A stretch of 64,000 bases of DNA from Gracilinema caldarium (lineage in GTDB: Bacteria; Spirochaetota; Spirochaetia; Treponematales; Breznakiellaceae). The position numbers and the translations under genes are program-made. Numbering within the stretch: position 1 is the first letter of the stretch; each line of letters begins with the position of its first letter. The stretch covers positions 1 through 64,000 of the forward strand of contig NZ_JAJUHW010000007.1 in assembly GCF_029265695.1 (NCBI RefSeq), given 5' to 3'. This document shows, piece after piece, positions 9,020 to 54,508 of the stretch. The notes under the pieces were generated by a model. The model was given only the letters and a program-made list of their open reading frames with translations, was not told where the DNA came from and made no database searches.

Positions 9020-9044
9020 AAAAGCCCCGGAGGTTTTCCGGGGC
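9020..9044 (-). terminator. Terminator/attenuator between gam and gemA
   Basis: In the leftward direction GCCCCGGA (9044-9037) pairs with TCCGGGGC (9031-9024), followed by TTTT (9023-9020). A second dyad, ATCGCCG/CGGCGAT, lies just upstream (9046-9070). This probably lowers expression of the three distal early genes. Confidence 0.7.
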
Positions 9045-9072
9045 CATCGCCGGACGTCCAGGTCGGCGATTC

Positions 9073-9582: not shown

Positions 9583-9594
9583 GATCGCCTCCTA

Positions 9595-10508: not shown

Positions 10509-10517
10509 TACGTCCTC

Positions 10518-11408: not shown

Positions 11409-11423
11409 ACAAATCTCCTTTGA

Positions 11424-15523: not shown

Positions 15524-15540
15524 GGGATAGGGAGGTAAAG

Positions 15541-38216: not shown

Positions 38217-39668
38217 TTAATGCTCTGAAAGATCAAAAAGAGTAGTATTGAATTTGTAGTCTGCTACATAGGCTGCAAGCCGTTCTCGTCTATCTTTCCT
38301 GACACTGAGTACAAGTTCATAGGGACTGCCAGCAGCGGCAATGTATTCCACAAAACCCATCAACTGGGTAAAAAGGGGCCATAATCCCCGGTTTTCATCC
38401 AGTTCCAGTTTGCCCATTTCATCAACATATACATAAATTGATTGGTAAGGTTCATGATTTTTCAATGCTGGTACCAGCCAATGAGCAAGGTTTTCAAAGG
38501 CCCCAGGATCGAATAGGTAAGGACCAAGCAGTATAGGATCTGATACCTTAAAGTCGCAAGACGACGCAGGCTCGCCCCTTTCGAGACTCGGCGAATCAGC
38601 CGAATGAAGCAGCTCGCTCGATCTGCAGAGGGCCTGTCTAAAAAAAGATGGCCCCGTCGCTTTAGTCCAATAAAAGGCTTCCAGGTCAAAGCCCAGCGCC
38701 CTGCCGTCATGCTTCCGGCCAGTCTGGACCTGGGACACCATAATAAATAGGGAAAAGACGAAAGCAGGCGATTCCATCAGGTTGATGAACGAACGGAAGG
38801 CGTTCTGCCTGAGCTGTGTCGTTTTTCCAGAACCGGGGCTGCCAGTGATAAGCCGGACGGAAGAAGGCCTGGCCCCTGGTGCAGGTTGTGGGGCAGGTTC
38901 TGGTGCAGCTGTTGGCGCAGCATCCTGTGCTGCCGTTTGCTGAATAACTTGTTGCTGTGACTTTTTTCCAAGATACGCGAGGGCGCTTATATATGATTCC
39001 AGGGTGTCCACATCAAAAACAACTGCCTGATCTTCAGTATCAACACTGAAGACCTGACATTGGTGAAGCACAGGCTTAAGAGAATCTCCATCAGAGGCTG
39101 ACTGTATAAGGGGAATTGCCGCTTGAGAAAACAGCACCGGATGGCCCGGCTGGTTTGGCGGGAGATAGATGGGACGTATGGCAATGGCATCCTTGGGGCA
39201 GTGTTCTAAGGGCCTATGAGTAAAGATAGTTTTATACCACTGGGGGCCAATGAGGGGCATGTCTGCATGGGCAACAAAAAACCAGGGGCTTTTAACATAG
39301 GGAAGCCCCGCCTTAATCGATGAAACCATGCCTTGATCCCACTGTTCATTACGAACAACGCGGACATACGGCCATCCTGCAAAACGTTTTTTCAATTCTT
39401 CGCCCCGAAAACCGGCGACCAGGATGACCCGGCATCCGGCAGCAAGGGCAGAGAAAACCGCTGCGTCAGCCAGCCAGCTTTCCTGAGGCTGGCCAGCCGG
39501 CAACACCGGCAGTTGGGTTACACCAGAGTAAACGCCAGAGTCAACAGAGGGCTGGCTAGAGCGGAACCAGGGGAGGCTGAGCTTCCATTCTCCAATACGA
39601 CGGGAAGCCCCGGCGGCGCAGATAATACAGTCCGCAAATTGGTTGCCTTTTTCAAATTCGTCATTCAT
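38217..39668 (-). CDS. MocA-like nucleotidyltransferase fused to THEP1-like NTPase
   Basis: A 483-residue two-domain protein. Residues about 10-230 are a molybdenum-cofactor cytidylyltransferase-like domain (IICAAGASRRIGEWK for the nucleotide loop, VAHADMPLIGPQWY for the metal-binding acidic site). After a Pro/Ala/Gln-rich linker (about 243-272), residues 273-483 form a P-loop NTPase (LITGSPGSGKTTQLRQ) with YVYVDEMGKLEL as its Walker B-like element. MocA makes the dinucleotide form of the cofactor used by xanthine dehydrogenase-type enzymes, which are encoded 3 kb away. The NTPase may act in cofactor insertion. The gene is divergent from the cupin gene. Confidence 0.82.
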   Translation of the reverse strand: MNDEFEKGNQFADCIICAAGASRRIGEWKLSLPWFRSSQPSVDSGVYSGVTQLPVLPAGQPQESWLADAAVFSALAAGCRVILVAGFRGEELKKRFAGWPYVRVVRNEQWDQGMVSSIKAGLPYVKSPWFFVAHADMPLIGPQWYKTIFTHRPLEHCPKDAIAIRPIYLPPNQPGHPVLFSQAAIPLIQSASDGDSLKPVLHQCQVFSVDTEDQAVVFDVDTLESYISALAYLGKKSQQQVIQQTAAQDAAPTAAPEPAPQPAPGARPSSVRLITGSPGSGKTTQLRQNAFRSFINLMESPAFVFSLFIMVSQVQTGRKHDGRALGFDLEAFYWTKATGPSFFRQALCRSSELLHSADSPSLERGEPASSCDFKVSDPILLGPYLFDPGAFENLAHWLVPALKNHEPYQSIYVYVDEMGKLELDENRGLWPLFTQLMGFVEYIAAAGSPYELVLSVRKDRRERLAAYVADYKFNTTLFDLSEH

Positions 39669-40213: not shown

Positions 40214-41467
40214 TCAGCCCTCTGAACCAGTTGCATCCTTCGGGCGGAGAATCAGGTTTAATACAACGCCGAAAATAGCAGACAAGCCCAGGCCGGAGAG
40301 GTTGATCGGGCCGAGCTTGAAGGTAGCGCCGCCGAGACCAAGGACGAGCATGGTGGCGGTAATAATCAGCACCTTGGGATTGGAAAGGTTAACCTTCGCA
40401 TCTACCATGTTCTTGATACCGATGGAGGAAATCATACCGAAGAGCAGGATAGAAATGCCGCCAATTACCGGAGCGGGAATCGTACCGATAAGAGCGGTAA
40501 ATTTGGGAACCAAGGAGAGGAGAATTGCGAAGATCGCGGCTATTCTCATGATGATGGGGTTGAACGCACCGGTAAGAGCTACTGCACCGGTATTTTCCGA
40601 ATAGGTGGTATTTGCAGGACCGCCGATTAGGGCAGCGAGGGATGTTGCAAGTCCGTCACCGATCAGGGTCCGATGAATGCCGGGATCCTTTATAAAGTCC
40701 TTGCCGACCACATTGCCGATAGCTAGGATATCCCCGAAATGCTCGACCATGGTTACTATCGCGATAGGCACCATAATAGAAATGGCTGAGGCGGAGAATT
40801 TGGGCAAGCTGAATTTCGGAATACCGATCCATGCAGCTTCGCCGACCGACTTAAAGTCTACAATACCGATAATGATAGACAGAATGTAACCCGCAATAAG
40901 CGCAATGAGAACCGGGAGGTTTGATGCAAATTTCCATCCAAATTTCGGGAATGCGATTTTTACAAATACGCCGACCGCAAAGGTAAAGAGCGATATAGCC
41001 CAGCAGCCATTGGTTCCAATTGCATCGGCGATAGCCTTGGCATTGGTGCCATTGGCATTCTGTACAGCCACCGGAGCAAGAATCATACCGATGAGTATGA
41101 TCATTGGACCGGTCACATGGGGTGGCAGAATCTTGTGGAGATTATCATAGGAGACAAACTTAAAGATAATTGCCACTACCACATAGAGCAAACCGGCGAT
41201 AACAATACCCCCAAGGGCATAGGGAATCCCTTCGCTTGCTCCGACTGCAATAATGCCAGGAATAAAAGCAAAGGAGCTTCCGAGGAATACCGGTACCTTA
41301 AAGCCGGTTACGATATGGAACAGCAAGGTTCCGATACCGGCGGCAAAGAGGGTTACGCCAACATCCAGCCCCGTCAAAATAGGGACCAAAACTGTTGCGC
41401 CAAACATTACGAACGTGTGCTGCAAGCCGAGAATCACGTTCCTTCCGGAGAGGTCTTTTTCTGCCAT
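40214..41467 (-). CDS. uraA: NCS2 uracil/xanthine permease
   Basis: A 417-residue permease of the nucleobase:cation symporter-2 family with about 12-14 membrane helices. LGLQHTFVMFGATVLVPILT at the start and GGPANTTYSENTGAVALTG (about 280-300) with its Glu are UraA-type signatures. Uracil and xanthine carriers cannot be separated safely by eye; the neighbouring xanthine dehydrogenase genes favour a purine substrate, while closest resemblance in motif is to uracil carriers. It has its own promoter in the 139-bp gap after the xdhA stop and a terminator after its end. Confidence 0.85.
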   Translation of the reverse strand: MAEKDLSGRNVILGLQHTFVMFGATVLVPILTGLDVGVTLFAAGIGTLLFHIVTGFKVPVFLGSSFAFIPGIIAVGASEGIPYALGGIVIAGLLYVVVAIIFKFVSYDNLHKILPPHVTGPMIILIGMILAPVAVQNANGTNAKAIADAIGTNGCWAISLFTFAVGVFVKIAFPKFGWKFASNLPVLIALIAGYILSIIIGIVDFKSVGEAAWIGIPKFSLPKFSASAISIMVPIAIVTMVEHFGDILAIGNVVGKDFIKDPGIHRTLIGDGLATSLAALIGGPANTTYSENTGAVALTGAFNPIIMRIAAIFAILLSLVPKFTALIGTIPAPVIGGISILLFGMISSIGIKNMVDAKVNLSNPKVLIITATMLVLGLGGATFKLGPINLSGLGLSAIFGVVLNLILRPKDATGSEG

Positions 41468-41606: not shown

Positions 41607-44063
41607 CTACGGCGTAATTGCCGCGTCGGGACTGTGCCGCCGGGTGGCCGGATCGGACCGGCAGGAACCGGAAGGCGTCTTGGTAATCCAGTTATCGATG
41701 GGCTCCTTGTTCTGTAAAGCCCGCCAGACATCTTCTGCCCGTATGGGCATATGGGTCAGTTCAGCGCCGACCGCCGCATCGATGGCGTTGGCCAGGGCCG
41801 GGGCGACGGATATCATGGGGTGTTCACCGACTCCACGGGCACCGTAGGGACCGTCTAGCTGGGGGGTCTCCACCGCAATGGTTTCTATCGCTTCCGGCAG
41901 ATCCTTGGCGGTGGGTATCTTGTTGTCCGTAAAGGAGGGGTTAAGAAGGTGCCCCTGCTTATCGTAGATATAGCCTTCGCAAATAGCGGTCCCGAGGCCC
42001 TGGATCATTCCGCCGATAGCCTGGCCGCGCACCATGTCCTCGTTAATCACCTTGCCGACATCAAAGGCGCTCGCTATTTTCAGTATCTTGTATTCACCCG
42101 TTTCAGGATCCACTTCCACGGTAATGCCGTGGGCTCCATAGGTCCAGTCCAGTGCAGGATTTCCCTCGCCTGTTTCCTTGTTCAGGTTGCTGAGGCCCTG
42201 GGCTATGTACTGGCCCACCCCAATAAGCGGACCGCCCACACCGTTGCCGTTGGGGTACGCATAACCGATAGAAATGCTTGCCCAGCTTACCGCTTCCGAA
42301 GGATGGTGTTTTACATAGATCTTATCCCCGTCGTGGGCAAGGTCCGCAGGGTTTGCTCGTAGAATCTGGGCTGCCACTTCATAACCCTTTTTCAGGAGAT
42401 CCTCCGCGGCAAGAATACAGGCGTTTCCGGAAAGAATGAGTCCCTTGGAAGCCACGGTTTGCCAGTCGTAGGGATCCCGATCTGTGTCCTTTTCTACTGT
42501 AACCTTTACTTTTTCCAGGGGGAATCCTAAGCGCTCCGCCACAATTTGCTGGAAGGCGGTAGTGGAACCTTGGCCGATTTCCATGAGCCCTACGTTGACA
42601 TTCACCGTACCGTCACTGTTCATTTTAATGACAGCCGAAGTTGCCGTGAAGGACGGCATAGCTGGGGCCTTGTGCAAAGCTGCAATGCCCTTACCTATCT
42701 TTCTACCCGTCTTCCTCTCCCGCTCCTTTTCTTCTTCGGTCAGGGTGCCGTAGTTAATTGCGTTTGCAACCGCATCAATACACTTGAGGACGTTTCCCGT
42801 ATGTTCCTGGATAACTTCCCCCGTTAGGGTTGTTGATCCGGGTCGCAGGGCATTTTTTCGGCGGAATTCCAGGGGATCCATGCCAATAGCCTTGGCAACC
42901 AGTTCCATATGCCGTTCAAGACCCCAGTGGAATTCTACATGTCCGAAACCACGATATGCAGTCCCATAGGGCTTATTGGTATAGACCGTGTAGGCATCGA
43001 CCCAGGCATTGGGAATATCGTAGGGGCCATTAGCAGAATAGCAAGAAGCCCTAGTTACGTTCACCGCATAGTCAGCATAAGCTCCTGCATCCCAGTACAT
43101 GGTCATTTTCTGGGCAAGAATACGACCGTCTTTAGCAACACCGGTCTTGATACGATAAGTCAGAGCACTGCGGCATGGAAGGAGGGTAAATTCCTCTTCA
43201 CGGCTGGCCTGGAATTTTACCGGCCGGCCTCCGGCCTTTCTAGACAGCACCGCTGTCAAAGGTTCGATATGAATTCCTGCCTTTCCGCCGAAACCTCCAC
43301 CCACATGGGGTACCAGAACCCGCACCTTGTTTAATGGAAGCTTAAAGGCATAACAGAACAGGTTCCGCACCGTAAAGGGAGACTGGGCACTAGACCAAAT
43401 CGTAATTTCATCATCCTTACCCCACTGAACAATTGCGACATGGGTTTCCATGGGAACGTGTTGGACCGACGGATTGGTATATTCCCGTTCGATAATCCAC
43501 TCCGATTCGGAAAACCCCTTTTCCACATCACCCTTGCGCATCTTATTCCATGTGGCAATATTTGTCCCCGGCTGGGGAGAAAAAGCGGGCTTAAAATAAT
43601 CATATTTTCCCAGATCCGGATGGATGAGGGGAGCGCCCTCTTTGATGGCATCCATGTGGTTTAGGATCGGCTCCAGGACCTCGTATTCCACCTCGATAAG
43701 GTCTACCGCTTTTTTGGCGATTTCCAGCGTGTCCGCTGCAACCGCTGCAACCGCTTCCCCATAATGGCGGACCTCTTTTTTAGCCAGGATATCCTTATCT
43801 ACAATATATAAACCAAGCTTGTAATTAAGCTCCTCGCCGGTCAGCACCGCCCGAACCCCCGGCAGAGCCTGGGCCTTGGATACATCAATATGCTTAATTC
43901 GTGCCCGGGCATGGGGACTTTTTTTCACCTGAGCATAAAGCATACCCGGCAGCACTATATCGCTCACATACCTGGCAGCTCCGGTAATTTTTTCCACCGC
44001 CTCTTCCCGGCGGACCGCCTTGCCGACATATTTAAGAGTTTTGGGATCGCTATTTTCCAGCAT
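41607..44063 (-). CDS. xdhA: Xanthine dehydrogenase-family molybdopterin subunit
   Basis: The 818-residue catalytic subunit of a molybdenum hydroxylase. VPHVGGGFGGKAG (about 255-267), GTAYRGFGHVEFHW and the near-C-terminal GARGVGEHPM (with the base glutamate) are cofactor and active-site segments. The loop reads AYRGFG and not the AYRCSFR of CO dehydrogenase, so this is not a Cox enzyme. QHVPMETHVA replaces the usual substrate-pocket glutamate region, so the substrate may be a purine or another N-heterocycle. It is the last gene of the operon and overlaps xdhC by 14 bp. Confidence 0.88.
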   Translation of the reverse strand: MLENSDPKTLKYVGKAVRREEAVEKITGAARYVSDIVLPGMLYAQVKKSPHARARIKHIDVSKAQALPGVRAVLTGEELNYKLGLYIVDKDILAKKEVRHYGEAVAAVAADTLEIAKKAVDLIEVEYEVLEPILNHMDAIKEGAPLIHPDLGKYDYFKPAFSPQPGTNIATWNKMRKGDVEKGFSESEWIIEREYTNPSVQHVPMETHVAIVQWGKDDEITIWSSAQSPFTVRNLFCYAFKLPLNKVRVLVPHVGGGFGGKAGIHIEPLTAVLSRKAGGRPVKFQASREEEFTLLPCRSALTYRIKTGVAKDGRILAQKMTMYWDAGAYADYAVNVTRASCYSANGPYDIPNAWVDAYTVYTNKPYGTAYRGFGHVEFHWGLERHMELVAKAIGMDPLEFRRKNALRPGSTTLTGEVIQEHTGNVLKCIDAVANAINYGTLTEEEKERERKTGRKIGKGIAALHKAPAMPSFTATSAVIKMNSDGTVNVNVGLMEIGQGSTTAFQQIVAERLGFPLEKVKVTVEKDTDRDPYDWQTVASKGLILSGNACILAAEDLLKKGYEVAAQILRANPADLAHDGDKIYVKHHPSEAVSWASISIGYAYPNGNGVGGPLIGVGQYIAQGLSNLNKETGEGNPALDWTYGAHGITVEVDPETGEYKILKIASAFDVGKVINEDMVRGQAIGGMIQGLGTAICEGYIYDKQGHLLNPSFTDNKIPTAKDLPEAIETIAVETPQLDGPYGARGVGEHPMISVAPALANAIDAAVGAELTHMPIRAEDVWRALQNKEPIDNWITKTPSGSCRSDPATRRHSPDAAITP

Positions 44064-44541
44064 ATTTCAATCCCTCCTTCTTTTCTAACTGTCCTGTGGC
44101 ATCGAGAACCGCTTCTATTATCTGTTGGTAGCCTGTACAGCGGCAAAAGTTGCCCTCCAGACCTTCCTTTATTTCTTCCACCGTTGGTTTCGGATGATTG
44201 CGGATAAGCTCCCGGGCAGACATGATCATACCGGAGGTGCAGAAACCGCACTGTACCGCATTGTTTCTATCAAAGGCTTCCTGCAGCTTCGAAAGGGTTC
44301 CGTCCTTAGCTTCGCCTTCGATGGTTTCTATTTCTGCGCCATCGGCCTCGACTGCCAAGACCATACAGGAATTAACGGTTTTTCCGTTCATAAAGACCGT
44401 ACAGGCACCGCACTCTCCTGCCCCGCAGCCTTCTTTGGTACCCGTAAGGCCCAGATCTTCCCGCAGGAACCTCAAGAGGGTTCGATTTTCCGCCACATCC
44501 CGTTCATAAAGTTCACCGTTAATTTTTACTGAGATTTTCAT
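44050..44541 (-). CDS. xdhC: Xanthine dehydrogenase-family iron-sulfur subunit
   Basis: A 163-residue protein with two [2Fe-2S] clusters: the plant-type ferredoxin site CGAGECGACTV (about 43-53, with a fourth Cys downstream) and the helical site CGFCTSGMIM plus CRCTGYQ. It moves electrons from the molybdenum centre to FAD. Start ATG 44541 overlaps the stop of xdhB (ATGA); the longer frame from 44610 lies wholly inside xdhB and is not used. Confidence 0.92.
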   Translation of the reverse strand: MKISVKINGELYERDVAENRTLLRFLREDLGLTGTKEGCGAGECGACTVFMNGKTVNSCMVLAVEADGAEIETIEGEAKDGTLSKLQEAFDRNNAVQCGFCTSGMIMSARELIRNHPKPTVEEIKEGLEGNFCRCTGYQQIIEAVLDATGQLEKKEGLKYAGK

Positions 44542-45356
44542 TTCCGCACCTCCGTAAGCAGCCGTTTTACAAATACTTCTACCATAAATTCCCGGTATTC
44601 CTTGCTGCACCGCACATCGCTAATGGGACTGATTATTTTTCGAGTCGCCGCAACCGCATCTTCTACCGAAATGGAAGCCGGCAGATCCGGCGTTACCACC
44701 GGAGTCGGAGCGGCGGAACTTACGGCAATTCGGAGTACATCGCCCTTAATACTCACGGCAACTCCAATAATGCCCAGATCATGCCCGTTGATGCGTTTTA
44801 GTTTGCGGTAGGCGCCCTTTGCCCCTGCAGTTGTCGGCGGGATAATGATTGATTCCAGCACCTCTGCTGGACTCAATACGGTCTTTTTTACCCCCGTAAA
44901 AAACTCTGTAAAGGGCACCACCCTTGTTCCCTTGCTGGATGCGATGACCGCCTGGGCCCCTAGACAGAGCAGAGCCGGTGCCATGTCCGAACAGGGAGAG
45001 GCGTTGACCACATTGCCCATAATGGTTGCCCGGTTCCGTACCTGGTAACTTGCCAGGTCATGGCCGCATTCCTGGAGGAGCGGATAATGATCCCGCACGG
45101 CCTGGTTCTTTAGTATTTCGTTGATGGTTACCGCGGGCCTAAAAACAAGTCCTTCAGTGGGACTGTAGGTAATCCCCTCGTAGCCAGATACCTTTTTTAT
45201 ATCCACCACAAGCTGGGGCTTCATAACCCCGTTTCTAATATTAACCAGCAAATCGGTCCCCCCCGCCAGGACCTTTGCATTGCCTTCATGGTCATCCAGA
45301 ATCTTAAAAAGCTCCTGTTTTGACCTTGGCCCTGCATAAGAAAATTGATGCAGCAT
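44538..45356 (-). CDS. xdhB: Xanthine dehydrogenase-family FAD subunit
   Basis: A 272-residue FAD-binding subunit. KVLAGGTDLLVNIRNG (about 27-42) and the TIMGNVVNASPCSDMAPAL region are the FAD-binding motifs of the CO dehydrogenase-flavoprotein family. It should reduce NAD+ or another acceptor. ATG 45356 with AAAGGAGG upstream is taken as start. It lies 14 bp downstream of the preceding carbamate kinase gene's TAA region. Confidence 0.9.
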   Translation of the reverse strand: MLHQFSYAGPRSKQELFKILDDHEGNAKVLAGGTDLLVNIRNGVMKPQLVVDIKKVSGYEGITYSPTEGLVFRPAVTINEILKNQAVRDHYPLLQECGHDLASYQVRNRATIMGNVVNASPCSDMAPALLCLGAQAVIASSKGTRVVPFTEFFTGVKKTVLSPAEVLESIIIPPTTAGAKGAYRKLKRINGHDLGIIGVAVSIKGDVLRIAVSSAAPTPVVTPDLPASISVEDAVAATRKIISPISDVRCSKEYREFMVEVFVKRLLTEVRK

Positions 45357-45369
45357 AGCGCCTCCTTTT

Positions 45370-46314
45370 TTATAGTACAAATCTCGTACCCGACTCTCCC
45401 CGCAGAGAGCGGATTATATTTTCCGAATTGGTTATAATTGCTTCCTTGCCTCCGTTCTTAAGGTAATCGATGACAGCCTTCACCTTGGGCTCCATGCTGC
45501 CCTTGCCAAACTGACCCTCTTTCAGGTATTGCTCTGCCTCCGCTATGGTGAGCTTATCGAGCCAGCGGCGGGTAGGTTTGGTAAAGTCTAGGGCAACCTT
45601 TTCCACCTCTGTGGAGATGATAAAAAGGTCAGCTCCGATAGACGAAGCTAGCACGCTGGATGCAAGGTCCTTGTCGATAACCGCTTCCAAGCCAGAAATA
45701 GTGCCGTCCTCGGCTTCTGCAACAGGCACTCCGCCGCCACCAACGGCGATGACCGTCTCGCCCTGTTCCAGAAGTTCCCGGATTATGCTTTCCTGGATTA
45801 TACGTTTGGGCCGGGGGCTCGGCACGACCCGCCGCCAGCCGCGGCCAGAGTCTTCCACCACGGACCAGCCGTCCTGTTCCTGCCGCATTTTGGCGGTGGC
45901 CTCGTCCATAAAGGAACCAATAGGCTTGGTCGGATTCTTAAAAGCCGGATCATTGGCGTCCACCACCGTTTCGGTGACCAGGGCCACCGCCCGGTTGGGC
46001 ATGCCCCGGCGGCGGAACTCGTTATACAGGGAGGTCTCAAACATGTAACCGATCGAACCCTGGGTATTACTGCCGATATAATCAAGCGGCGCAGGAGGCA
46101 CCTCCTTGGCACTGATTTCGTTTTTCCGGAGTAAAAAACCTACCTGAGGACCGTTTCCGTGGGTTATCGCCACCGAATACCCAGCCTGTATAAGATCGAC
46201 AATATAGGGAACCGTGAACCGAACCGATTCAAACTGGTCCTGAAGACCTGTCTTTTTTGGATCCCGGATCAGGGCATTTCCGCCCACGGCAACTATTGCA
46301 ATTTTTCGTGCCAT
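45370..46314 (-). CDS. allK: Carbamate kinase (AllK/ArcC-type)
   Basis: A 314-residue amino-acid-kinase-fold enzyme: carbamoyl phosphate + ADP to carbamate + ATP. IVAVGGNALI at the start, ITHGNGPQVGFLL (about 48-60), VIAVGGGGVPV and AVIDKDLASS are carbamate-kinase motifs. ATG 46314 has AAGGAGG upstream and overlaps the stop of the DUF2877 gene. In E. coli the allantoin pathway ends with such a kinase taking carbamoyl phosphate from oxamate carbamoyltransferase. The same partnership is expected here because all the subunits lie in the same operon. Confidence 0.92.
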   Translation of the reverse strand: MARKIAIVAVGGNALIRDPKKTGLQDQFESVRFTVPYIVDLIQAGYSVAITHGNGPQVGFLLRKNEISAKEVPPAPLDYIGSNTQGSIGYMFETSLYNEFRRRGMPNRAVALVTETVVDANDPAFKNPTKPIGSFMDEATAKMRQEQDGWSVVEDSGRGWRRVVPSPRPKRIIQESIIRELLEQGETVIAVGGGGVPVAEAEDGTISGLEAVIDKDLASSVLASSIGADLFIISTEVEKVALDFTKPTRRWLDKLTIAEAEQYLKEGQFGKGSMEPKVKAVIDYLKNGGKEAIITNSENIIRSLRGESGTRFVL

Positions 46315-47339
46315 CAAGACCTCCTTTGTTCCACCGAGGCAATTCCAAACAGGAAACCGGTGGCACTGTCCAAACCGGAACTGTGCCCGTATTGGGCAAG
46401 CTGGACAATTTCTTGGCGGATATCCTGGGATGGGTCAACAAAGGCTTTCGCAAAGCGCACCAGAATGCTGCTGAATCGGCCCAGGCTTGCCATATATAGA
46501 AAACTTTTAGAAACAATACCGGTCCTGTCTCTCGGATCCGTGATTGTGGAGGGGACAGTCCCCAATGTGGCCGCAATCCCCCATAACCAGGTCTCTACTG
46601 CTAAAGCACTTATCTGCTCTTCATAATCAGGATGGGCTGCGTACATGAGGAGGGCTATGGCAAGGCCGCAGAGAAAATCGTCCCCCGAAGGAGTTAAGCC
46701 CTGGCCGAGGCCAAGCAGCTTAAGCGAAGCCGTCAAAGCTACAGAGGGTGAACCGGCGACTAGAGAATTGCAAAGTGTATTTGCAACAGATTCAAACCGG
46801 CCGCTATACCCACTCGTTTCTTCAGGAAGAAAATTCACCAGGTGCTCTTTGGAAAGCCAGCGAAGCTCCGTATTTTGTTCCGCCTGGAGTGCTTCCAGGG
46901 CTATTCCGGCTTCCTCCAGCCGCTGCTCCAGCATTCCTGCACTAAGCGCCAGTGGGGGCGGACATTCATCAACCTGTGAATTCTTCTTAATATGATCAAA
47001 GCTTATTGAAATATGAGAACCGAACGAGAGGGTTTGTCCGTTAAATCTGCCGGCAATCCCAGGTTCTAGACTTAAGGCGTTGAAACGAACCGCTTGGCTC
47101 CCAGAACCGGCAACAAGGACCGATAGGGGATGCAGAAGAGCAGGCTGTGTAACCAGGGTATAGAGAATCGGTTTATCAGGTACAATAAGATTCAGCGCAT
47201 TGGTATATACAGAATGTACCGTGCATTCAAAGGGTTCCGAGGGGAATAGGGAACCTGCAATGTAGGCATCTATTCTGCTCACTGGACCGGACCAGCATTC
47301 AGTACTTTCCGATCCCTGGCTATACCAAACCGTGCGCAC
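46314..47339 (-). CDS. allH: DUF2877 protein, AllH-like subunit of carbamoyltransferase
   Basis: A 341-residue DUF2877 protein. SVALTASLKLLGLGQGLTPS and GDDFLCGLAIALLMY (about 205-240) form the family signature; a separate, more variable N-terminal half precedes it. E. coli AllH (YlbF) is one of three proteins required for oxamate carbamoyltransferase activity, together with FdrA and YlbE; all three are represented in this operon. It overlaps the GntR gene by 20 bp and the kinase gene by 1 bp. Confidence 0.85.
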   Translation of the reverse strand: MRTVWYSQGSESTECWSGPVSRIDAYIAGSLFPSEPFECTVHSVYTNALNLIVPDKPILYTLVTQPALLHPLSVLVAGSGSQAVRFNALSLEPGIAGRFNGQTLSFGSHISISFDHIKKNSQVDECPPPLALSAGMLEQRLEEAGIALEALQAEQNTELRWLSKEHLVNFLPEETSGYSGRFESVANTLCNSLVAGSPSVALTASLKLLGLGQGLTPSGDDFLCGLAIALLMYAAHPDYEEQISALAVETWLWGIAATLGTVPSTITDPRDRTGIVSKSFLYMASLGRFSSILVRFAKAFVDPSQDIRQEIVQLAQYGHSSGLDSATGFLFGIASVEQRRS

Positions 47340-48000
47340 GGATAAGCGCTTCCTTTAGGGCGTTAGATACCTTGTCCTTGCCCCATAGTATGTTCTCCCG
47401 GGTTAATTCCTTCGCCCTCTGCACATCGCAGTGCTCTAGAGCAGCAAGGATCTCCAAATGGTCCTGGCAAGTTTTTTTAAGCCGCTCAGGATCGGTAATG
47501 TCCGAAAGCCGTACAAAATGTATGCTCCGGTCTATATCTTTTAAAATTTTCTGCATTACCCTGTTTCCCGCTTCCGCAGCCAGGGCTTCGTGAAAGTGTT
47601 CGTCTTCTAATGCTGCTTCATGGGCCATGGCCGGCAGGGCGTCCAGCAGTTCCTTCCAGCGCTTTCTGAGCTGCCTAAGAATTCCAGAGCTCATACCGCG
47701 TTCACAGATTTGCTCAATAACCGCCAGTTCCAGTACGAGCCGGGTATCGTAGAGGTCCTCCAGTTCCTGCAGGTCAATCTTGCGAACCCGGTACCCCTTT
47801 CGTTCTGCCTTGTCCACAAGACCCGCCTCCGCAAGCATGTTCAGAGCCTCGCGGATAGGACTGCGGCTTACCCCGAATTCCACACAGAGTTCTTCCTCGG
47901 TAAGCCGATGGCCAGGCGGATAGAGCCATGTGCGGATCCGTTCAGATAATGATTCATACACTTCTGCACTAAGATTCCTTCCGCTCCGTCCGTCTGCCAT
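47320..48000 (-). CDS. GntR-family regulator (FadR/FCD subgroup)
   Basis: A 226-residue regulator. The N-terminal winged HTH (RIRTWLYPPGHRLTEEELCV, then SRSPIREALNMLAEAGLV) and the C-terminal FCD ligand domain (about 80-215, with DEHFHEALAAEAGN and the metal-binding His/Asp set) are clear. It is encoded within the operon, so it is probably an autoregulator responding to a pathway intermediate. The TTGTATACAA palindrome at the operon promoter is a typical FCD-type operator. Confidence 0.9.
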   Translation of the reverse strand: MADGRSGRNLSAEVYESLSERIRTWLYPPGHRLTEEELCVEFGVSRSPIREALNMLAEAGLVDKAERKGYRVRKIDLQELEDLYDTRLVLELAVIEQICERGMSSGILRQLRKRWKELLDALPAMAHEAALEDEHFHEALAAEAGNRVMQKILKDIDRSIHFVRLSDITDPERLKKTCQDHLEILAALEHCDVQRAKELTRENILWGKDKVSNALKEALIRAHGLV

Positions 48001-48009
48001 CAGATCCTC

Positions 48010-48393
48010 CTATTTAAACACGAATACTTTAACCGGCTTGCCAGGCCGTTCGTCGGACTCCTCCACCGTGGCGGTGAGCTTCATCCCAATAACAGGATTT
48101 TCCACCTCAAGCCGTCCCGATGCCCGCAGTCCATTTTCGAACTGGACTATACCAAAGAGGAGATACTTTTTGGTATACCCTTCGGGCAAATTCCACGCCC
48201 TGGTCCAGGTAAGCAGTGTGCAGGGGCCTTCGAGATCGAAGGTTTCCCAGCCCTTACCGGTTACCGGATCCCGACGGGCGCTGCATTTTGAACAGATCAT
48301 CGGTGCCGGATAATAGATGGCCCCGCAACTTTGGCATTTATAGGCCTTTATTTTGGGGGCCTTTACTTCGTATTGGCTAAAATCGATAAACAT
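48010..48393 (-). CDS. DUF35 OB-fold/zinc-ribbon protein
   Basis: A 127-residue protein with a rubredoxin-like zinc ribbon (YKCQSCGAIYYP ... MICSKC, about 19-37) followed by an OB fold (about 50-125). DUF35 proteins are obligate partners of thiolase-fold enzymes, for example in archaeal thiolase/HMG-CoA synthase complexes and in the steroid aldolase Ltp2-ChsH2. It lies 9 bp downstream of the thiolase-fold gene, so a complex is almost certain. Confidence 0.88.
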   Translation of the reverse strand: MFIDFSQYEVKAPKIKAYKCQSCGAIYYPAPMICSKCSARRDPVTGKGWETFDLEGPCTLLTWTRAWNLPEGYTKKYLLFGIVQFENGLRASGRLEVENPVIGMKLTATVEESDERPGKPVKVFVFK

Positions 48394-48402
48394 ATCTGCC
48401 CC

Positions 48403-49602
48403 CTATTCCTTTGCGCAAATCACCGCTACGACGTTGTTGCCGAATCCGCCGAAATTGACGGACATGCCGTATTTGGGGTCCTTTACCTGGCGGCCCGGTT
48501 CAGCTTCGCCCCGGAGCTGGCGGACCAGTTCTACTACCTGGGAAACCCCGGTAGCGCCAACAGGATGACCCTTGGATTTAAGCCCTCCCGATGTGTTAAT
48601 GGGAAGCCGGCCGTCTATTTTTGTCTCTCCCTTCCGGACCGCAAGATAACTCTTGCCCCGCTCAAAGAAACCAACCTCTTCACTGATGGCCAGTTCCAGA
48701 ATGGAAAAGGCGTCATGGAGCTCGGCAAAAGAGATGTCCTGGGGGCCTACCCCAGCCATTTTGTAAGCCTTTTCGGCTGCAATCCGAACCGCATTAAGCT
48801 GGAGCGGATCCTTCCGGTTGTGGACACAGTGGGTGTCGGTAGCGCTGGCAATGCCCGCTATCCGGATGGGCTTTTTCTTAAAGTCCTTGACCCGGGGGCT
48901 GTCCATATTGACCAGCAAGACCGCCGCAGCACCGTCCGAAACGGGACAGGTGGAATACATTCGCAGGGGTTCAGCCACATAGTTGTTGACCACCTCTGCT
49001 TCGGGACCATCGGCAATGGCTTCGATATTAACCGGCGCCTGGATATGGGCATATTTGTTTTTGGCTCCGTTGTCATGGTTTTTAACCGCCAACAGCGCCA
49101 GGTCCCGTTCGGTAAGACCGTATTTTTCCATATAGAGCCGGGTAAACATACCGCCGAAGGCCGGCAAGGTAAGACCCATGTTGTACTCTGCTTCCTGGTG
49201 CAGCATGGTGGCCACAATATCGGTGGACATCCAGCCGCTTACTTTGCGCATGACTTCGCCGCCTACCACGAGCACCACATCGCACATACCGGAGGCAATG
49301 GCCATATAGCCGATTTTGATAGCGCTGGCCCCGGAAGCAGGCCCGTTTTCTACCAGTTCAGCGGGTACAGGCTCCATGTCCATACGGCTAATGAGAGAAG
49401 AGGCTACGGCAGATTGATGAACAAACAGGCCCGACGCCATGTTTCCCACAATGACCTGGTCAATTTCTTTTCTCTTTTCTAGATAACCCGCATCCTGGAG
49501 GGCGTCGGTGGCTGCATAGGCCATGACGTCCGCCAGATCGTATTCCGATGAATTTCCGAACCGGGTGTGCCCGATTCCAACAATACCGACTCTGGCGGCC
49601 AT
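48403..49602 (-). CDS. Thiolase-fold protein lacking the nucleophilic cysteine
   Basis: A 399-residue SCP-x/archaeal-type thiolase homologue (VGIVGIGHTRFGNSSEYDLA at the start). The late active-site motifs are kept: LHDAFSILE and GGLKSKGHPVGATG with its His. The position of the catalytic Cys (VEAACASG in ordinary enzymes) reads VENGPASG, so Cys is replaced by Pro, and the last motif is NFGGFGNN with no Cys. It therefore cannot use the normal acyl-enzyme mechanism. By analogy with Ltp2, which works as an aldolase with a DUF35 partner, a C-C lyase role is possible. It is encoded in the purine/ureide operon. Confidence 0.88.
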   Translation of the reverse strand: MAARVGIVGIGHTRFGNSSEYDLADVMAYAATDALQDAGYLEKRKEIDQVIVGNMASGLFVHQSAVASSLISRMDMEPVPAELVENGPASGASAIKIGYMAIASGMCDVVLVVGGEVMRKVSGWMSTDIVATMLHQEAEYNMGLTLPAFGGMFTRLYMEKYGLTERDLALLAVKNHDNGAKNKYAHIQAPVNIEAIADGPEAEVVNNYVAEPLRMYSTCPVSDGAAAVLLVNMDSPRVKDFKKKPIRIAGIASATDTHCVHNRKDPLQLNAVRIAAEKAYKMAGVGPQDISFAELHDAFSILELAISEEVGFFERGKSYLAVRKGETKIDGRLPINTSGGLKSKGHPVGATGVSQVVELVRQLRGEAEPGRQVKDPKYGMSVNFGGFGNNVVAVICAKE

Positions 49603-49605
49603 AGC

Positions 49606-50292
49606 TTACCTCTTAAATCCTGGAATTTGCGGATATTCGCTGGGCATAATGAGCTTTTCGGCGGACTTAAGGTCTTCTTCTGAGACAGGCCTTGTACCGG
49701 TGCATTTTACAGCCTTTACATCGTTCCAGAGCTTCCGGGTCAGCACATAGGTGGGAACACCACCCAATTCGTGCCGGACCTGGGGATACAGGTGGGACCG
49801 GTCTTCCAGCTGATATTCGATCATCCATCGCTTAAACCCATTGGGGCTTTCAGCCACAATGTACACCTCATCTTCCCCGAGGATATCGATATGATGTTCC
49901 ATTTTTGCCGCAAAAAGCTGGGCTCCGACCCTGAGACCCCGTTTAATGGTAAGGGTATGAAGGCTCATACCGAGCTTGTCATCCACATGGCGACTTGTGA
50001 CGATACCGGCAATGACGCCGTTAATTGCGCCGACAATGACAAATTCGTTGGCAACCCGGTAGCGGTACCAGCCAAGAATTTCCGAATACATACGGGCGGC
50101 TACAATGTCATAAAAGTCCGCAGCAACACCGATAAGGGGGGCTACGGTACCGAGCAGTACACCGACTTCGTCCCGGCGGGCCTCGCGGACTACCATTTTT
50201 TCGCCCGAAGCCAGGGTAATTACCTTGGGAGGATAGGGCTTAAGCTCTACCTCGGGGGGTCTCAGTTTTTTCTCCATCTCATCGATTGCCAT
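49606..50292 (-). CDS. Operon protein of unknown function (possibly GNAT-like)
   Basis: A 228-residue protein I do not recognise. After a Pro-rich start, residues about 30-190 have an alternating pattern that includes VREARRDEVGVLLGTVAPLI, EFVIVGAINGVIAGIVTSRH and GLRVGAQLFAAKMEHHI; this recalls an acetyltransferase-like (GNAT) fold without its clear acetyl-CoA loop. It lies 12 bp from the cyclase gene and 3 bp from the thiolase-fold gene, so it must belong to the same process. Confidence 0.7.
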   Translation of the reverse strand: MAIDEMEKKLRPPEVELKPYPPKVITLASGEKMVVREARRDEVGVLLGTVAPLIGVAADFYDIVAARMYSEILGWYRYRVANEFVIVGAINGVIAGIVTSRHVDDKLGMSLHTLTIKRGLRVGAQLFAAKMEHHIDILGEDEVYIVAESPNGFKRWMIEYQLEDRSHLYPQVRHELGGVPTYVLTRKLWNDVKAVKCTGTRPVSEEDLKSAEKLIMPSEYPQIPGFKR

Positions 50293-50303
50293 GATTTGCT
50301 CCT

Positions 50304-51182
50304 CTATTTATGGTTCTTTCGGGCTTCTTCATGAAGCCATGGGTTCTTTGCACCGGCCACATCGCCGAACCGGGTAAGTTCTGCCTTGGCCTTTTTCTTC
50401 ATCAGTTCTTCGTAGCGGTCGTCTTCCACATGGGCCACAATGCGGGCAATGGAAGATTCGCCGTCCACAAAGCGCCAGGGATAGCAGCCGATGACTGCCC
50501 GCTGGTTTAAAAGCAGGTCTATATCGCCGCCCACGCATTCGGCATGAATAATGCCCTTGTCGAACATCTCAATATGCATGAGCTGGTATTTGTCGTCGCT
50601 GAAAAATTCATCCAGGCTCTTGCCATATTTCTTTTGGAAATGCGCATCGCATTCTTTGGCTTGCCGGGGCATCCATTCCCTGATCTTGGTGTTCATAGGA
50701 TGGTCTGCGCTACCGCAGTCCACACCGATCCAGCGAAGCTTTTTCTTTTTTGCCCATTCGGCAAACTCACGGTCTGGTCCGGGATGTTTAATCATGTAGC
50801 GGATTTCGTCTCCCGTCGGCTGGTCCCAGCCGTAATGATGAAAGCCGGTATGGATAATAAGGATGTCTCCCTCTTTTACTTCCACCCGTTCCTCTACCAT
50901 TTTGGAGGTATACACATCGTAATCGCCGCAAACATCGGAAAGGTCTACGATGGCACCTTCGTGGACCAGGAAGTCCATATCGAGGCTCGCAATGTCCTTA
51001 CCGGGGGTATAGAAATGGATTTCGCCATCCAGATGGGTTCCGATATGATTGGAGTGGGTAACCACTTGTCCGTTTGCGCCGTTGGGAGCAAGGCGCTTAA
51101 AGTATTGAACCTGCAAGGGAATGTAGGTCGGCCATGGCGGGGTTCCTACACCTAGAGGTATGGTTAAATCGATTACTTTCAT
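50304..51182 (-). CDS. Cyclase-family metal-dependent hydrolase
   Basis: A 292-residue member of the kynurenine formamidase/isatin hydrolase (cyclase, PF04199) family. HIGTHLDGEIHF (about 46-57) is the metal-binding HxGTHxDxxxH motif and GVDCGSADHPMNT (about 150-162) supports the active site. Members open cyclic or formyl amides, so ring opening of a purine-derived or other N-heterocycle is a likely step. It is the second gene of the operon, after the FdrA-YlbE fusion; a GGAGG site precedes ATG 51182. Confidence 0.85.
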   Translation of the reverse strand: MKVIDLTIPLGVGTPPWPTYIPLQVQYFKRLAPNGANGQVVTHSNHIGTHLDGEIHFYTPGKDIASLDMDFLVHEGAIVDLSDVCGDYDVYTSKMVEERVEVKEGDILIIHTGFHHYGWDQPTGDEIRYMIKHPGPDREFAEWAKKKKLRWIGVDCGSADHPMNTKIREWMPRQAKECDAHFQKKYGKSLDEFFSDDKYQLMHIEMFDKGIIHAECVGGDIDLLLNQRAVIGCYPWRFVDGESSIARIVAHVEDDRYEELMKKKAKAELTRFGDVAGAKNPWLHEEARKNHK

Positions 51183-51232
51183 TGAACACCTCCTCGTTAC
51201 TTAGGTCCAGCCAGGCTGAACCCTGTCCTTAT

Positions 51233-54200
51233 TTAATGAGAATCTGCTGCTGCATAGGCAGCAGCTAAAGCTTTGAGTGCATCCTGGTAACAGTTGGCCG
51301 GCGGCTTTACGAGGCCTGCACCGACCATGCCGATGCCAGGTTTTTTATGGGCAATACCGGTATTGATGACGGGAAGGATTCCCTTTTCAACCACCTTTCG
51401 TACATCGATAGCTGTGGGAGTGCCCCGGAAATCCAGAATCGGGATCTTGTACTCCCGGTTTTCCGCCAGGGTAATTTCGTACATTTCCCGGGTAAAGCGC
51501 AGGGCGTCTTCGGGACTGCCTCCGACAAATTTCACGATAGCCGGGGCTGCCGCCATGGCAAAGCCGCCGATACCGCTCGTTTCGGTAATAACCGAGTCTC
51601 CAATATCCGGCGCGGCATCCTCGGGACCGAAGCCCGGCAAATACAGTCCTTTTACTATCCCCGCAGGGCCGGTAAACCAGCGGCCCTTGAGCCCCGCTAC
51701 CTGGATGCCAAATTCGGTACCGTTCCGACCCTGGGCGGTAATAACCGTGCTGCCAGGAATTCCCTCTGCGGCCATCAGGACCGCTTTAGCCGAAGGCATG
51801 GTAAGATTCAGGAAGAAGTGATCATTCTGGTGCATAAAGGTAAGAACCCGGGAAAGAGCTTCCTTTGGCTCGTCGAGCATGACAAGATAGGGGGCAAGTT
51901 CCCGGATTACTAGAGAGGTTCCTGCTCGGTTCCGGTTGTGTCCCTCGTCGCCCATTTGTAGGGCCTGAACAATCAGGCTCCGCATGTCTACCGGTCCGTG
52001 CTTTTCTATTGCCTTCTGGAGTATCGGCGCCAGTTCCCCCTCCATCCAGCGGAGCCGGTCCAGCACTTCCTGGGAATAGGCTCCATAGCGGAGAACCTTG
52101 CCGAGACCCTCATTCAAGGTTGCATAGGCCCGGTTACCATAGGTTTCATTTTCGATAATCCAGACCGGCATACGGCTCGTCATGATTCCCGCCATAGGGC
52201 CCACGGCTGCGTGTTCCTGACAGGGCTCAAAATCAATCTTACCCGAAGCCGCCAGGGCTTCCGCTTCTTCTTCTGTTTTAGCCAGCCCCTCGTAAAGGAT
52301 GCCGCCAATAACGGCTCCCCGCATGGGACCGCACATCTTATCCCAGGTAATAGGCGGCCCCGCATGGAGGAACAGGTTCGGCCGCATGCCCGGGACTACG
52401 TCCTTTGCAATCCCAAGTCCCTTTATAAGCGGCTTACCCGAAAGTATCCGTTCCACCGCTTCCCCATTAGCCTTATCAATATCTACGGTCGAACGACTTT
52501 CCAGCTGGTCCAGAACCTGGATTAGTTCGGAATTTCCCCCCGCAGGAGGCATCCAATCCACATGAACCACTGGCGTATCACAGGATGCCAGATTTTCCGC
52601 AAAGGATTCGAGCCCTAGATTGATGACCCTAAGGCCCTGGTTAAAGAGGGCAAGGATATGTTCAGGTCCCGGCCCGGCGTCAGATGCTGAAGGACCAGCA
52701 ACTCCCACTGCGGCTTGGGCAGCTTTTTTCGCCCCAGTCTGTCCGGCTGCCGCTTGGTTTTGGAATGCGGGACTCGTCTTACCGGTTACCTTTTCCATAA
52801 TTTTTAGTGCCAACAAGGAAGCCTGGTAGTTGGAGGGCATAACAATAACCCCCGCACTGCGTAGCTTTGCTACCTGTGAATCGAAACCCTGGAAATCCCC
52901 GGGAGTTCCCGTTACAGAGGCAATCACTGAAAGGTAGCCGCCCCGTTTTTCGGCGGCTTCTTTAGCCTTTTTAATAGAAGTAAGCATAGCACCCGCCGGA
53001 TCCGGATGGGAACCGTAGCCCAGGACACAGTCCAACAACATGACCGCAATTTCCGGGTCATCCCGTTCAGCATCGATCCGTTCAGTCCTTGTGCTTGGGT
53101 CAATCATGGGATGGGGCCGGCCCACCGTAAAGACGTCGTCCCCCAGGTCAACAATGGTGTGCCCGATAGATTTTTTGGGATTCGGAAGCACAAAGGCCGG
53201 ATCTGTGTGGTTGTTGGAATAGACTGCACCGGTAAGACCATGGAGCAGTATCCAGGCTTCGTCGGTAAGGGTGCCGCCGGTATAATAGCCCCGGATATAT
53301 TTTTGATTTTTCGCCATACGACGAGTTTCTTGCTCCACCAGGGCTTCTATGTCTTTCTTTGAAAGGTCAAAGGGCCAATTCCGGCGGCTATTTTCATCAA
53401 CCTGTTTCCCCTCTGCAAGGGATACGGCCCATCGGGCAGCTTCTTCCAAATTGGAAGCGAAATGAATTGAAGAACTAGCGGCAATCAGTTCATTAAGTCC
53501 TATAAAATGAACCACCGCGGGTTTTCCGGTTTTTTCAAGGGCCTGCACTACCTTAGCTGCCACATCGGAAGCAGGCGGCTTAGAAACAATAAGAATTGCC
53601 TTTGTGTTCGGATCCGCCCCGAGGGCTTCAATGCCCATGAGCATGGTGGCCCCCCCGACCTGGGCATTTTTAAGGTCCCGGCCACCGGTGCCGATGCCCT
53701 GGCTGACACCGCTTCCAAAACGGTCGATAAGGCAGGAAACTTCCTGGAGGCCTGTCCCTGCCGCGGCCACTATACCGACCGGTCCCCGGTCTACCACATT
53801 GGCAAAACAAATCGGCTTACCATCTATAATAGCTGTTCCACAATCGGGACCCATAACAAGGAGTCCCTTTTGGCGGGCTATTTTTTTTAAGGCAATTTCG
53901 TCTTCCAGTGAAACATTGTCAGAAAACAGCATGACATGAAGCCCCTTATTAAGGGCCTTACGGACTTCCCGGGGGGCATACATACCGGGTACTGATATGA
54001 CAGCCATATTTGCATCGGGTATGAGATCAAGGGCGCTGTCTAAGGTCTTGCTGCGGGGCAGCCCAGATCCCGCAACAGAAGTAGTGCTAGCCTTTTTTTT
54101 ACCGCCCAGCATCTCATCTACGATTTTGAGAGCTTCGTCAAAGACTTTCTGCGAAGCACAATCCAGGGCAACCACAAGGTCAGCGGGGCTGACTTCTTTC

Positions 54201-54367
54201 AGGGATTCAAGACTATAGCCCTGTTCTTTAAGGAGTTCCAGGTTCATGGGAGTACCCATGGTTACTGTGGCATCTATGATATCGGACCGTTCCTTAAGAT
54301 CCTTGCTCAGGAGCATTAAAAAAACCGAATCCACATAGGTGTCTTTGCGAACATGTATCCTTTTCAT
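51233..54367 (-). CDS. fdrA: FdrA-YlbE fusion, carbamoyltransferase of oxamate type
   Basis: A 1044-residue fusion. Residues 1-about 540 are FdrA-like (succinyl-CoA-synthetase-related): VISVPGMYAPREVRKAL, LLVMGPDCGTAII, VGIVAAAGTGLQE. An Ala/Gly-rich linker (about 545-580) joins a YlbE/DUF1116 domain (about 585-1044) with VHVDWMPPAGG, MCGPMRGAVIGGILYEGLA and GDEGHNRNRAGTSLV. In E. coli these are separate proteins (AllF and AllG) that with AllH convert carbamoylated oxamate (oxalurate) plus phosphate to oxamate and carbamoyl phosphate. The fusion fixes their stoichiometry. It is the first gene of the operon; AGGGGTGAG precedes the ATG. Confidence 0.88.
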   Translation of the reverse strand: MKRIHVRKDTYVDSVFLMLLSKDLKERSDIIDATVTMGTPMNLELLKEQGYSLESLKEVSPADLVVALDCASQKVFDEALKIVDEMLGGKKKASTTSVAGSGLPRSKTLDSALDLIPDANMAVISVPGMYAPREVRKALNKGLHVMLFSDNVSLEDEIALKKIARQKGLLVMGPDCGTAIIDGKPICFANVVDRGPVGIVAAAGTGLQEVSCLIDRFGSGVSQGIGTGGRDLKNAQVGGATMLMGIEALGADPNTKAILIVSKPPASDVAAKVVQALEKTGKPAVVHFIGLNELIAASSSIHFASNLEEAARWAVSLAEGKQVDENSRRNWPFDLSKKDIEALVEQETRRMAKNQKYIRGYYTGGTLTDEAWILLHGLTGAVYSNNHTDPAFVLPNPKKSIGHTIVDLGDDVFTVGRPHPMIDPSTRTERIDAERDDPEIAVMLLDCVLGYGSHPDPAGAMLTSIKKAKEAAEKRGGYLSVIASVTGTPGDFQGFDSQVAKLRSAGVIVMPSNYQASLLALKIMEKVTGKTSPAFQNQAAAGQTGAKKAAQAAVGVAGPSASDAGPGPEHILALFNQGLRVINLGLESFAENLASCDTPVVHVDWMPPAGGNSELIQVLDQLESRSTVDIDKANGEAVERILSGKPLIKGLGIAKDVVPGMRPNLFLHAGPPITWDKMCGPMRGAVIGGILYEGLAKTEEEAEALAASGKIDFEPCQEHAAVGPMAGIMTSRMPVWIIENETYGNRAYATLNEGLGKVLRYGAYSQEVLDRLRWMEGELAPILQKAIEKHGPVDMRSLIVQALQMGDEGHNRNRAGTSLVIRELAPYLVMLDEPKEALSRVLTFMHQNDHFFLNLTMPSAKAVLMAAEGIPGSTVITAQGRNGTEFGIQVAGLKGRWFTGPAGIVKGLYLPGFGPEDAAPDIGDSVITETSGIGGFAMAAAPAIVKFVGGSPEDALRFTREMYEITLAENREYKIPILDFRGTPTAIDVRKVVEKGILPVINTGIAHKKPGIGMVGAGLVKPPANCYQDALKALAAAYAAADSH

Positions 54368-54391
54368 CTCACCCCTCCCGCACCACTATTA

Positions 54392-54429
54392 GACGTGTTC
54401 TCATCGGACAAGTCCAATGAGAACACGTC
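54392..54429 (-). promoter_or_regulatory. Long perfect dyad in the operon leader
   Basis: GACGTGTTCTCAT (54392-54404) and ATGAGAACACGTC (54417-54429) are perfect 13-bp arms, and GGAC/GTCC continue the dyad inside with one mismatch. It lies in the roughly 107-nt untranslated leader, 25 bp before the start codon. It could be a hairpin controlling transcription or translation, or a repressor site. Confidence 0.65.
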
Positions 54430-54480
54430 CAATTAAGCCCAATTTGGCCAGACCAAATCCGGTCCATTCATGTAGACTTA

Positions 54481-54508
54481 ATTATATACCGGATTGTATA
54501 CAAGTCAA
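54481..54508 (-). promoter_or_regulatory. Main operon promoter overlapping a GntR-type operator
   Basis: Leftward TTGACT (54508-54503), 16-bp spacer and TATAAT (54486-54481). The perfect palindrome TTGTATACAA (54494-54503) begins at the end of the -35 box, so a bound regulator would exclude RNA polymerase. Another GTATAC-type site lies upstream of the GH79 gene at 56162-56169. Confidence 0.7.

Follow-up and report, generated by a model that had tools for sequence, protein, structure and literature searches.

Gene content and regulation of the locus

The locus described here lies in a 64,000-nucleotide stretch of the Gracilinema caldarium contig NZ_JAJUHW010000007.1 (positions 1 to 64,000; hereafter, the window) and is a run of eleven genes through which uracil, or a pyrimidine close to it, may be broken down oxidatively under anaerobic conditions. 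The open reading frame (ORF) list of the window contains eleven minus-strand ORFs between 41607 and 54367, packed with gaps of -20 to 50 bp, just as an original prediction made from the sequence alone had described. The longest xdhC ORF is the lone larger overlap, beginning 73 bp inside xdhB, and the xdhB/xdhC overlap is kept in relatives. Pfam and NCBIfam searches returned domain calls that agree with the names given to the eleven genes in that prediction, and the permease it had placed after them is also present (Table 1). The run comprises an fdrA-ylbE fusion, a PF04199 "cyclase", a 228-aa protein (U228), a thiolase fold, a DUF35 protein, a GntR/FCD regulator, an AllH-type protein, carbamate kinase and the xdhBCA genes of a molybdenum (Mo) hydroxylase. 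U228, the thiolase fold and DUF35 are referred to below as the trio.

Table 1. Features of the operon and its flanks, with coordinates in the window
Feature	Coordinates	Strand	Evidence
Promoter TTGACT-16-TATAAT	54481..54508	-	11/12 match; motif conserved in relatives
Palindromic operator TTGTATACAA	54494..54503	-	Overlaps the -35/-10 spacer; single occurrence in the 64 kb window
21-bp leader hairpin between promoter and fdrA	54388..54433	-	Folding z -6.5
fdrA-ylbE (AllF-AllG) fusion, 1044 aa; carbamoyltransferase subunits F and G	51233..54367	-	NF004760, PF06545, PF00549
PF04199 "cyclase", metal-dependent amidohydrolase	50304..51182	-	PF04199 E 5e-30
U228, 228 aa, predicted GNAT-fold protein, first trio member	49606..50292	-	AF2 model, Foldseek and VIA
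Cys-less thiolase-fold subunit	48403..49602	-	PF22691/PF00108
DUF35 zinc ribbon, thiolase-fold partner	48010..48393	-	PF12172; four zinc Cys invariant
GntR/FCD regulator	47320..48000	-	PF00392 and PF07729; present in loci with TTGTATACAA at the fdrA or trio promoter
AllH-type (DUF2877) carbamoyltransferase subunit	46314..47339	-	PF11392 E 9e-21
Carbamate kinase (carbamoyl phosphate + ADP -> ATP)	45370..46317	-	TIGR00746 374 bits, above cut-off 358
xdhB, FAD subunit of Mo hydroxylase	44538..45380	-	PF00941, PF03450
xdhC, 2x[2Fe-2S] subunit of Mo hydroxylase	44050..44610	-	PF01799, PF00111
xdhA, molybdopterin subunit	41607..44063	-	PF02738, PF20256, PF01315
NCS2 permease, uracil/pyrimidine clade	40214..41467	-	E ~1e-73 to UraA vs 4e-12 to 2e-14 to UapA; tree and binding-site residues
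MocA/MobA-like Mo-cofactor nucleotidyltransferase	38217..39668	-	PF12804; TIGR03310 110 bits, below cut-off 186

A single strong promoter, the top of 23 promoter-like sites in 18.6 kb, lies 114 bp upstream of fdrA and contains a palindromic operator, which supports the earlier suggestion that the genes form one co-regulated operon. The operator TTGTATACAA also precedes fdrA in ten related genomes, one of them the same-genus genome whose operon has decayed (see below), and it precedes the trio in loci L034 and L051. It is probably the GntR site. Its overlap with the promoter and its recurrence before fdrA or the trio in relatives fit a single operon under repression by the GntR/FCD protein it encodes, which presumably acts from this one operator.

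Conservation of the gene set

Among 197 genomes of the order, eight encode U228. As far as can be followed on the fetched contigs, one of which stops inside the cyclase-fdrA junction, all eight have genes for FdrA/YlbE, the cyclase, the thiolase fold, DUF35, GntR and Xdh around it. A wider scan using one genome per species yielded 80 named trio loci, seven of which are contigs already among the 197-genome matches. They occur in Spirochaetota, Clostridia (Clostridium ragsdalei, C. magnum, C. bowmanii, Anaerocolumna aminovalerica and Flavonifractor), Coriobacteriales, Caldiserica, Verrucomicrobia and single metagenome-assembled genomes of other phyla. Forty-four loci are flanked by 5 kb or more on each side (well-flanked loci); the thiolase fold and DUF35 were present in all 44, the cyclase and FdrA/YlbE in 38, and XdhA as well in 32. 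Conservation of the set, which the original prediction had put forward as a check, hence extends to several phyla, and this co-conservation is far beyond chance.

One complete genome of the same genus (G012, locus L129) carries a decayed copy of the whole operon at 6578-16300. There, fdrA-ylbE and the genes for the cyclase, thiolase, AllH, ArcC, XdhC and XdhA are disrupted or cut short and U228 is missing; DUF35, GntR, XdhB and the permease look intact.

A core module with alternative downstream modules

The original prediction had grouped the cyclase with the thiolase and DUF35 genes as a quartet, a grouping that did not hold as a unit. A cyclase with at least 84% identity is encoded by 28 of the 197 genomes, and U228 accompanies it in only 8. 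In the trio-less loci (fetched loci, as far as their contigs reach), the FdrA/YlbE, permease and Xdh genes mostly remain with the cyclase. Because the cyclase keeps these partners where the trio is absent, it belongs to a core module consisting of xdhBCA, the PF04199 cyclase, the AllFGH-type carbamoyltransferase, carbamate kinase and the permease, while the thiolase fold, DUF35 and U228 form a separable trio.

In ten trio-less loci and in genome G114, a CaiB/BaiF CoA-transferase gene follows the core, behind the cyclase, and an amidase-signature amidase is present in nine. CaiB was absent from all eight trio genomes tested; an amidase occurs together with the trio in L048 and L013/L037. Since CaiB is found in trio-less loci and absent from trio genomes, the trio and CaiB (with or without the amidase) appear to be alternative downstream modules, and the simplest reading is that they are alternative routes from the same small amide acid to a CoA thioester. 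Four Clostridium loci (L059, L062, L066 and L071) have a 3-hydroxyacyl-CoA dehydrogenase gene after the operon, as would suit a pathway ending in an acyl-CoA.

Linked permeases and pyrimidine genes

The window permease is far closer to UraA than to UapA (Table 1). In a tree that included six Escherichia coli NCS2 proteins, nearly all permeases linked to these operons grouped, in several separate clades, with UraA/RutG rather than with XanQ/XanP/UacT, and those that did so keep Glu241 and Glu290. All seven UraA site residues are identical in several Clostridium permeases, and that of C. ragsdalei exceeds the uracil permease equivalog cut-off (643 bits; cut-off 477). The window permease scored 356 bits against the same model, short of that cut-off, and retains four of the seven residues (F73, E241, Y288 and E290), with H245D, G289S and Y342F changed.

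In one relative (genome G003), a single gene run holds fdrA-ylbE, the cyclase, a CoA-acylating (methyl)malonate-semialdehyde dehydrogenase (MMSDH), an M20 carbamoylase, a PreT-like protein, PreA (500 bits; cut-off 335), dihydropyrimidinase (503 bits; cut-off 393), a class III aminotransferase, an NCS1 permease, GntR, AllH and xdhBCA. Thus, G003 carries the known reductive pyrimidine pathway inside the operon's gene run. The original prediction had named a purine or other N-heterocycle as the substrate; permease phylogeny, binding residues and the reductive pyrimidine genes of G003 make a pyrimidine (uracil) a better explanation than a purine. Overall, a pyrimidine substrate is well supported.

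Proposed pathway

We propose, with a probability of roughly 0.6, that the operon is catabolic and degrades uracil (or a closely related pyrimidine) anaerobically by an oxidative route. The uracil ring is a cyclic acyl-urea with six members; a single hydroxylation turns it into barbiturate, and one further hydrolysis gives ureidomalonate. The core genes pair one to one with the steps of such a scheme, assigned here from protein family and genomic context. The NCS2 permease would bring in uracil, XdhBCA would hydroxylate it to barbiturate, and the PF04199 hydrolase would open the barbiturate ring to give ureidomalonate. FdrA-YlbE and AllH would then phosphorolyse this acyl-urea to malonamate and carbamoyl phosphate, from which carbamate kinase would generate ATP, CO2 and NH3. 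Finally, the trio might take the remaining C3 acid, malonamate or malonate, to an acyl-CoA (acetyl-CoA plus CO2 in the simplest case), in place of the CaiB CoA-transferase and amidase of other lineages. The conserved gene set, the pyrimidine-type permeases, the missing thiolase Cys, the GNAT fold and the two alternative downstream modules are observations; all intermediates, the way in which each reaction runs, GntR repression and the chemistry of the trio are inferred from them.

XdhA, the putative uracil hydroxylase, falls under every NCBIfam equivalog cut-off, the nearest being xanthine-dehydrogenase-type models (538 bits; cut-off 780); its catalytic Glu region is retained, and its signatures GGGFGGKAGI and TAYRGFGH differ from those of E. 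coli XdhA and XdhD. The cyclase, a candidate for the barbiturate ring-opening enzyme, has an HxGTHxD metal motif that is invariant among 49 homologs. The genes for AllF, AllG, AllH and carbamate kinase are all together, with FdrA (NF004760, 580 bits; cut-off 433) and ArcC above NCBIfam cut-offs and AllG (PF06545, 331 bits) and AllH above Pfam cut-offs; fdrA and ylbE are two separate genes in several relatives. This gene complement supports the earlier proposal that a carbamoyl group yields ATP. In E. coli, AllFGH converts oxalurate and phosphate to oxamate and carbamoyl phosphate (PMC11326118). By analogy, ureidomalonate, the oxalurate homologue with one extra CH2, would yield malonamate and carbamoyl phosphate, and the genomic setting of the operon favours ureidomalonate over oxalurate as the substrate.

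Known oxidative pyrimidine catabolism proceeds via uracil dehydrogenase, barbiturase and ureidomalonase, is known mainly from aerobic actinobacteria and ends in urea. The scheme proposed here shares its first steps (uracil to barbiturate to ureidomalonate) but would use a PF04199 hydrolase instead of an AtzD/TrzD-type barbiturase, and phosphorolysis of ureidomalonate (yielding ATP) instead of hydrolysis (yielding urea). A search for the AtzD/TrzD-type barbiturase (PF09663) in 30 genomes gave no match, as did one for malonyl-CoA decarboxylase (PF05292); both are uninformative because the control genomes were likewise silent. The reductive (Pyd) pathway also starts from a pyrimidine, and its genes share the run in G003, but oxidation rather than reduction is proposed to precede ring opening here, and no dihydropyrimidinase exceeded the cut-off in the window genome.

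Among other characterized systems, the oxamate branch of anaerobic allantoin use in E. coli (AllFGH-AllK) similarly combines AllF/FdrA, AllG/YlbE, AllH and carbamate kinase for acyl-urea phosphorolysis to carbamoyl phosphate (PMC11326118), and allFGHK clusters occur in nitrifiers (PMC12625717). The present operon differs in that AllD is absent, AllF and AllG are fused in the genus Gracilinema, and the genes are tied to a Mo hydroxylase, a PF04199 hydrolase, a uracil-type permease and the trio. The anaerobic, reductive urate pathway of E. coli (XdhD/YgfK/SsnA/HyuA/YgeW/YgeY/YgeX) is another N-heterocycle route with carbamate kinase and a homologous Mo hydroxylase; however, its carbamoyltransferase is the OTCase-type YgeW, and it is not described as having AllFGH-type, cyclase or trio genes (PMC12507026).

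We found no report of the operon, trio or pathway in the open-licence PMC literature on barbiturate/ureidomalonate, malonamate, oxidative or anaerobic pyrimidine breakdown or thiolase/DUF35/GNAT proteins. What is potentially new is a variant of oxidative pyrimidine catabolism together with a new enzyme module. If correct, the phosphorolytic version would give sediment, digester and gut anaerobes an ATP-yielding use of RNA pyrimidines, the recently identified AllFGH enzyme would gain a second substrate, and the PF04199 protein would gain a ring-opening role. A function would also be defined for an invariant three-gene module with a Cys-less thiolase fold found in several phyla. The proposal is directly testable in named isolates that carry the operon (C. 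ragsdalei, C. magnum, A. aminovalerica and Sphaerochaeta halotolerans).

Weighing of alternative substrates

Several observations weigh against this pathway. Oxalurate is the sole proven substrate of AllFGH; carbamate kinase was near only 8 of the 44 well-flanked trio loci; the trio occurred without cyclase/FdrA in 5 of the 44; and the silent malonyl-CoA decarboxylase search, for what it is worth, belongs on the same side. Furthermore, the CaiB of trio-less clusters best matched CoA:oxalate CoA-transferase (411 bits, below the cut-off of 522), PucR-type regulators, present in many Clostridial clusters, occur in 19 loci (one representative tested), and two linked permeases (L019 and L065) fall outside the pyrimidine clade, that of L065 being xanthine-like with Gln290. 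The last three observations leave room for other explanations.

For example, a heterocycle such as a hydantoin or purine fragment could be oxidised and opened to oxalurate, which AllFGH would convert to oxamate, an amidase to oxalate and CaiB to oxalyl-CoA, with the trio performing the equivalent step. The activity of E. coli AllFGH on oxalurate (PMC11326118) and the best match of CaiB favour such a route. However, oxalyl-CoA decarboxylase exceeded its cut-off in none of the 30 operon-bearing genomes, the window genome included (one control genome did), which weakens the oxalate version, and AllD had no match in the window genome and exceeded its cut-off in none of the 30 (again, one control genome did). 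The mostly uracil-type permeases and the pyrimidine genes of G003 also argue against it, and we consider it quite improbable. The allantoin/oxalurate route was rejected based on the AllD results, in agreement with the original prediction, which had placed the operon's catabolic role outside the allantoin route; oxalate use via oxalyl-CoA was rejected based on the decarboxylase results.

Purine (xanthine/urate) catabolism, the preferred example in the original prediction, is perhaps the least probable of these alternatives. PucR is a family named for purine catabolism, and its 19 loci, the affinity of XdhA to xanthine-dehydrogenase-type models and the L065 permease are consistent with a purine. 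Nevertheless, a bicyclic ring would need more opening steps than the operon encodes, the permeases are mostly uracil-type, and the XdhA active-site signatures are unlike those of E. coli XdhA and XdhD.

It is also conceivable, though unlikely, that the same pathway acts naturally on thymine, a 5-substituted uracil or barbiturate itself. The enzymes would suit 5-methylbarbiturate equally, and locus L125 has a CoA-acylating (methyl)malonate-semialdehyde dehydrogenase; the Clostridium permease residues, on the other hand, match uracil binding exactly, although thymine would still be compatible with them.

Putative function of the trio

Uracil breakdown as proposed above assigns the trio its final and least certain step. 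U228 matched no Pfam or NCBIfam family above cut-off, and PHROGs and PDB sequence searches gave no relatives. Its AF2 model (pLDDT 91.9) had 162 Foldseek matches at E <=1e-3, of which those listed are GNAT-type (E 2e-6, prob 1.0), and VIA aligned it to GNATs with Z 13.4 and a root-mean-square deviation of 3.2 over 168 residues. The modeled structure thus has a GNAT fold, which normally binds acyl-CoA. Residues His112, Glu148 and Ser149 of U228 are invariant. In the thiolase fold, the position of the nucleophilic Cys (CASG motif) is occupied by Pro88 in 72 of 72 trio sequences and the second Cys loop is lost, whereas His296 (HDAF) and His346 (GHP) are invariant.

The original prediction had envisaged a thiolase pair making or breaking C-C bonds. 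Ordinary thiolytic chemistry is unlikely because Pro88 replaces the nucleophile throughout, and it was rejected as a candidate. Two active-site His residues without a Cys are reminiscent of decarboxylating ketosynthase-like domains. A related Cys-less protein, trypanosomal SLP, decarboxylates malonyl-CoA, very slowly, according to a passage citing that work in PMC12329534. Tentatively, the trio may form acetyl-CoA and CO2 from malonamate or malonate, with NH3 released as well if it acts on the amide itself. The full proposal, namely a widespread anaerobic pyrimidine-oxidation pathway that saves energy via ureidomalonate phosphorolysis and uses the trio as a new type of malonate/malonamate decarboxylase (releasing acetyl-CoA, CO2 and NH3), is correspondingly more doubtful than the pyrimidine operon itself, and we put it forward as a tentative model.

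The trio resembles other DUF35-thiolase complexes (archaeal acetoacetyl-CoA thiolase/HMGCS, PhlABC, BbsAB and Ltp2/Sal; PMC12329534) in pairing a thiolase fold with a DUF35 zinc ribbon, but differs in having Pro for the nucleophilic Cys, no YDHF/YDCY motif and a constant third partner of predicted GNAT fold. Ltp2/Sal are Cys-less thiolase folds that act with DUF35 as aldolases (catalytic motif YDHF or YDCY; PMC12329534). Accordingly, the trio could be a retro-aldolase or other lyase of a separate pathway, placed in the operon for co-regulation only. This is a less likely explanation, but one that deserves consideration: trio-only loci adjoin C-N hydrolases/nitrilases or an SSS symporter, and the operator is located at the trio where the trio with gntR forms a separate unit (L034). 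Conversely, the Ltp2/Sal motif is HDAF in the trio (72 of 72 sequences), the basis on which an Ltp2/Sal-type retro-aldolase was rejected; 38 of 44 loci hold the trio, the cyclase and FdrA together; and trio genomes lack the alternative CaiB module.

In three loci (L069, L073 and L052), the trio stands without the uracil core beside a small partner gene and an apparent SSS symporter, so named from its sequence; L069 also has a PF00795 C-N hydrolase (nitrilase-type) nearby. In such settings, the trio may act on a second substrate that is imported.

Neighbouring features

Downstream of the permease, the MocA/MobA-like gene is a probable accessory gene of the Mo hydroxylase. The leader hairpin is present as a single copy in the genome, sits in a stretch of ~80 bp inserted between the promoter and the fdrA start, and is absent from the same-genus relative L009; an Rfam search across the operon gave no matches. 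It may have arisen as a small insertion or may act as a control element in the leader.

The gene immediately upstream of the operon encodes a glycosidase with a GH79 N-terminal domain (54561-56141, minus strand). On the far side of an ABC transporter and a second GntR/FCD regulator is a GH4 glycosidase (59483-60907, minus strand), and the whole appears to be a glycan-use region. Just past the other end of the operon, a plus-strand gene (36543-37733) encodes a protein with an Mtd second domain and an FGE-sulfatase-like domain, a layout as in the variable proteins of diversity-generating retroelements.

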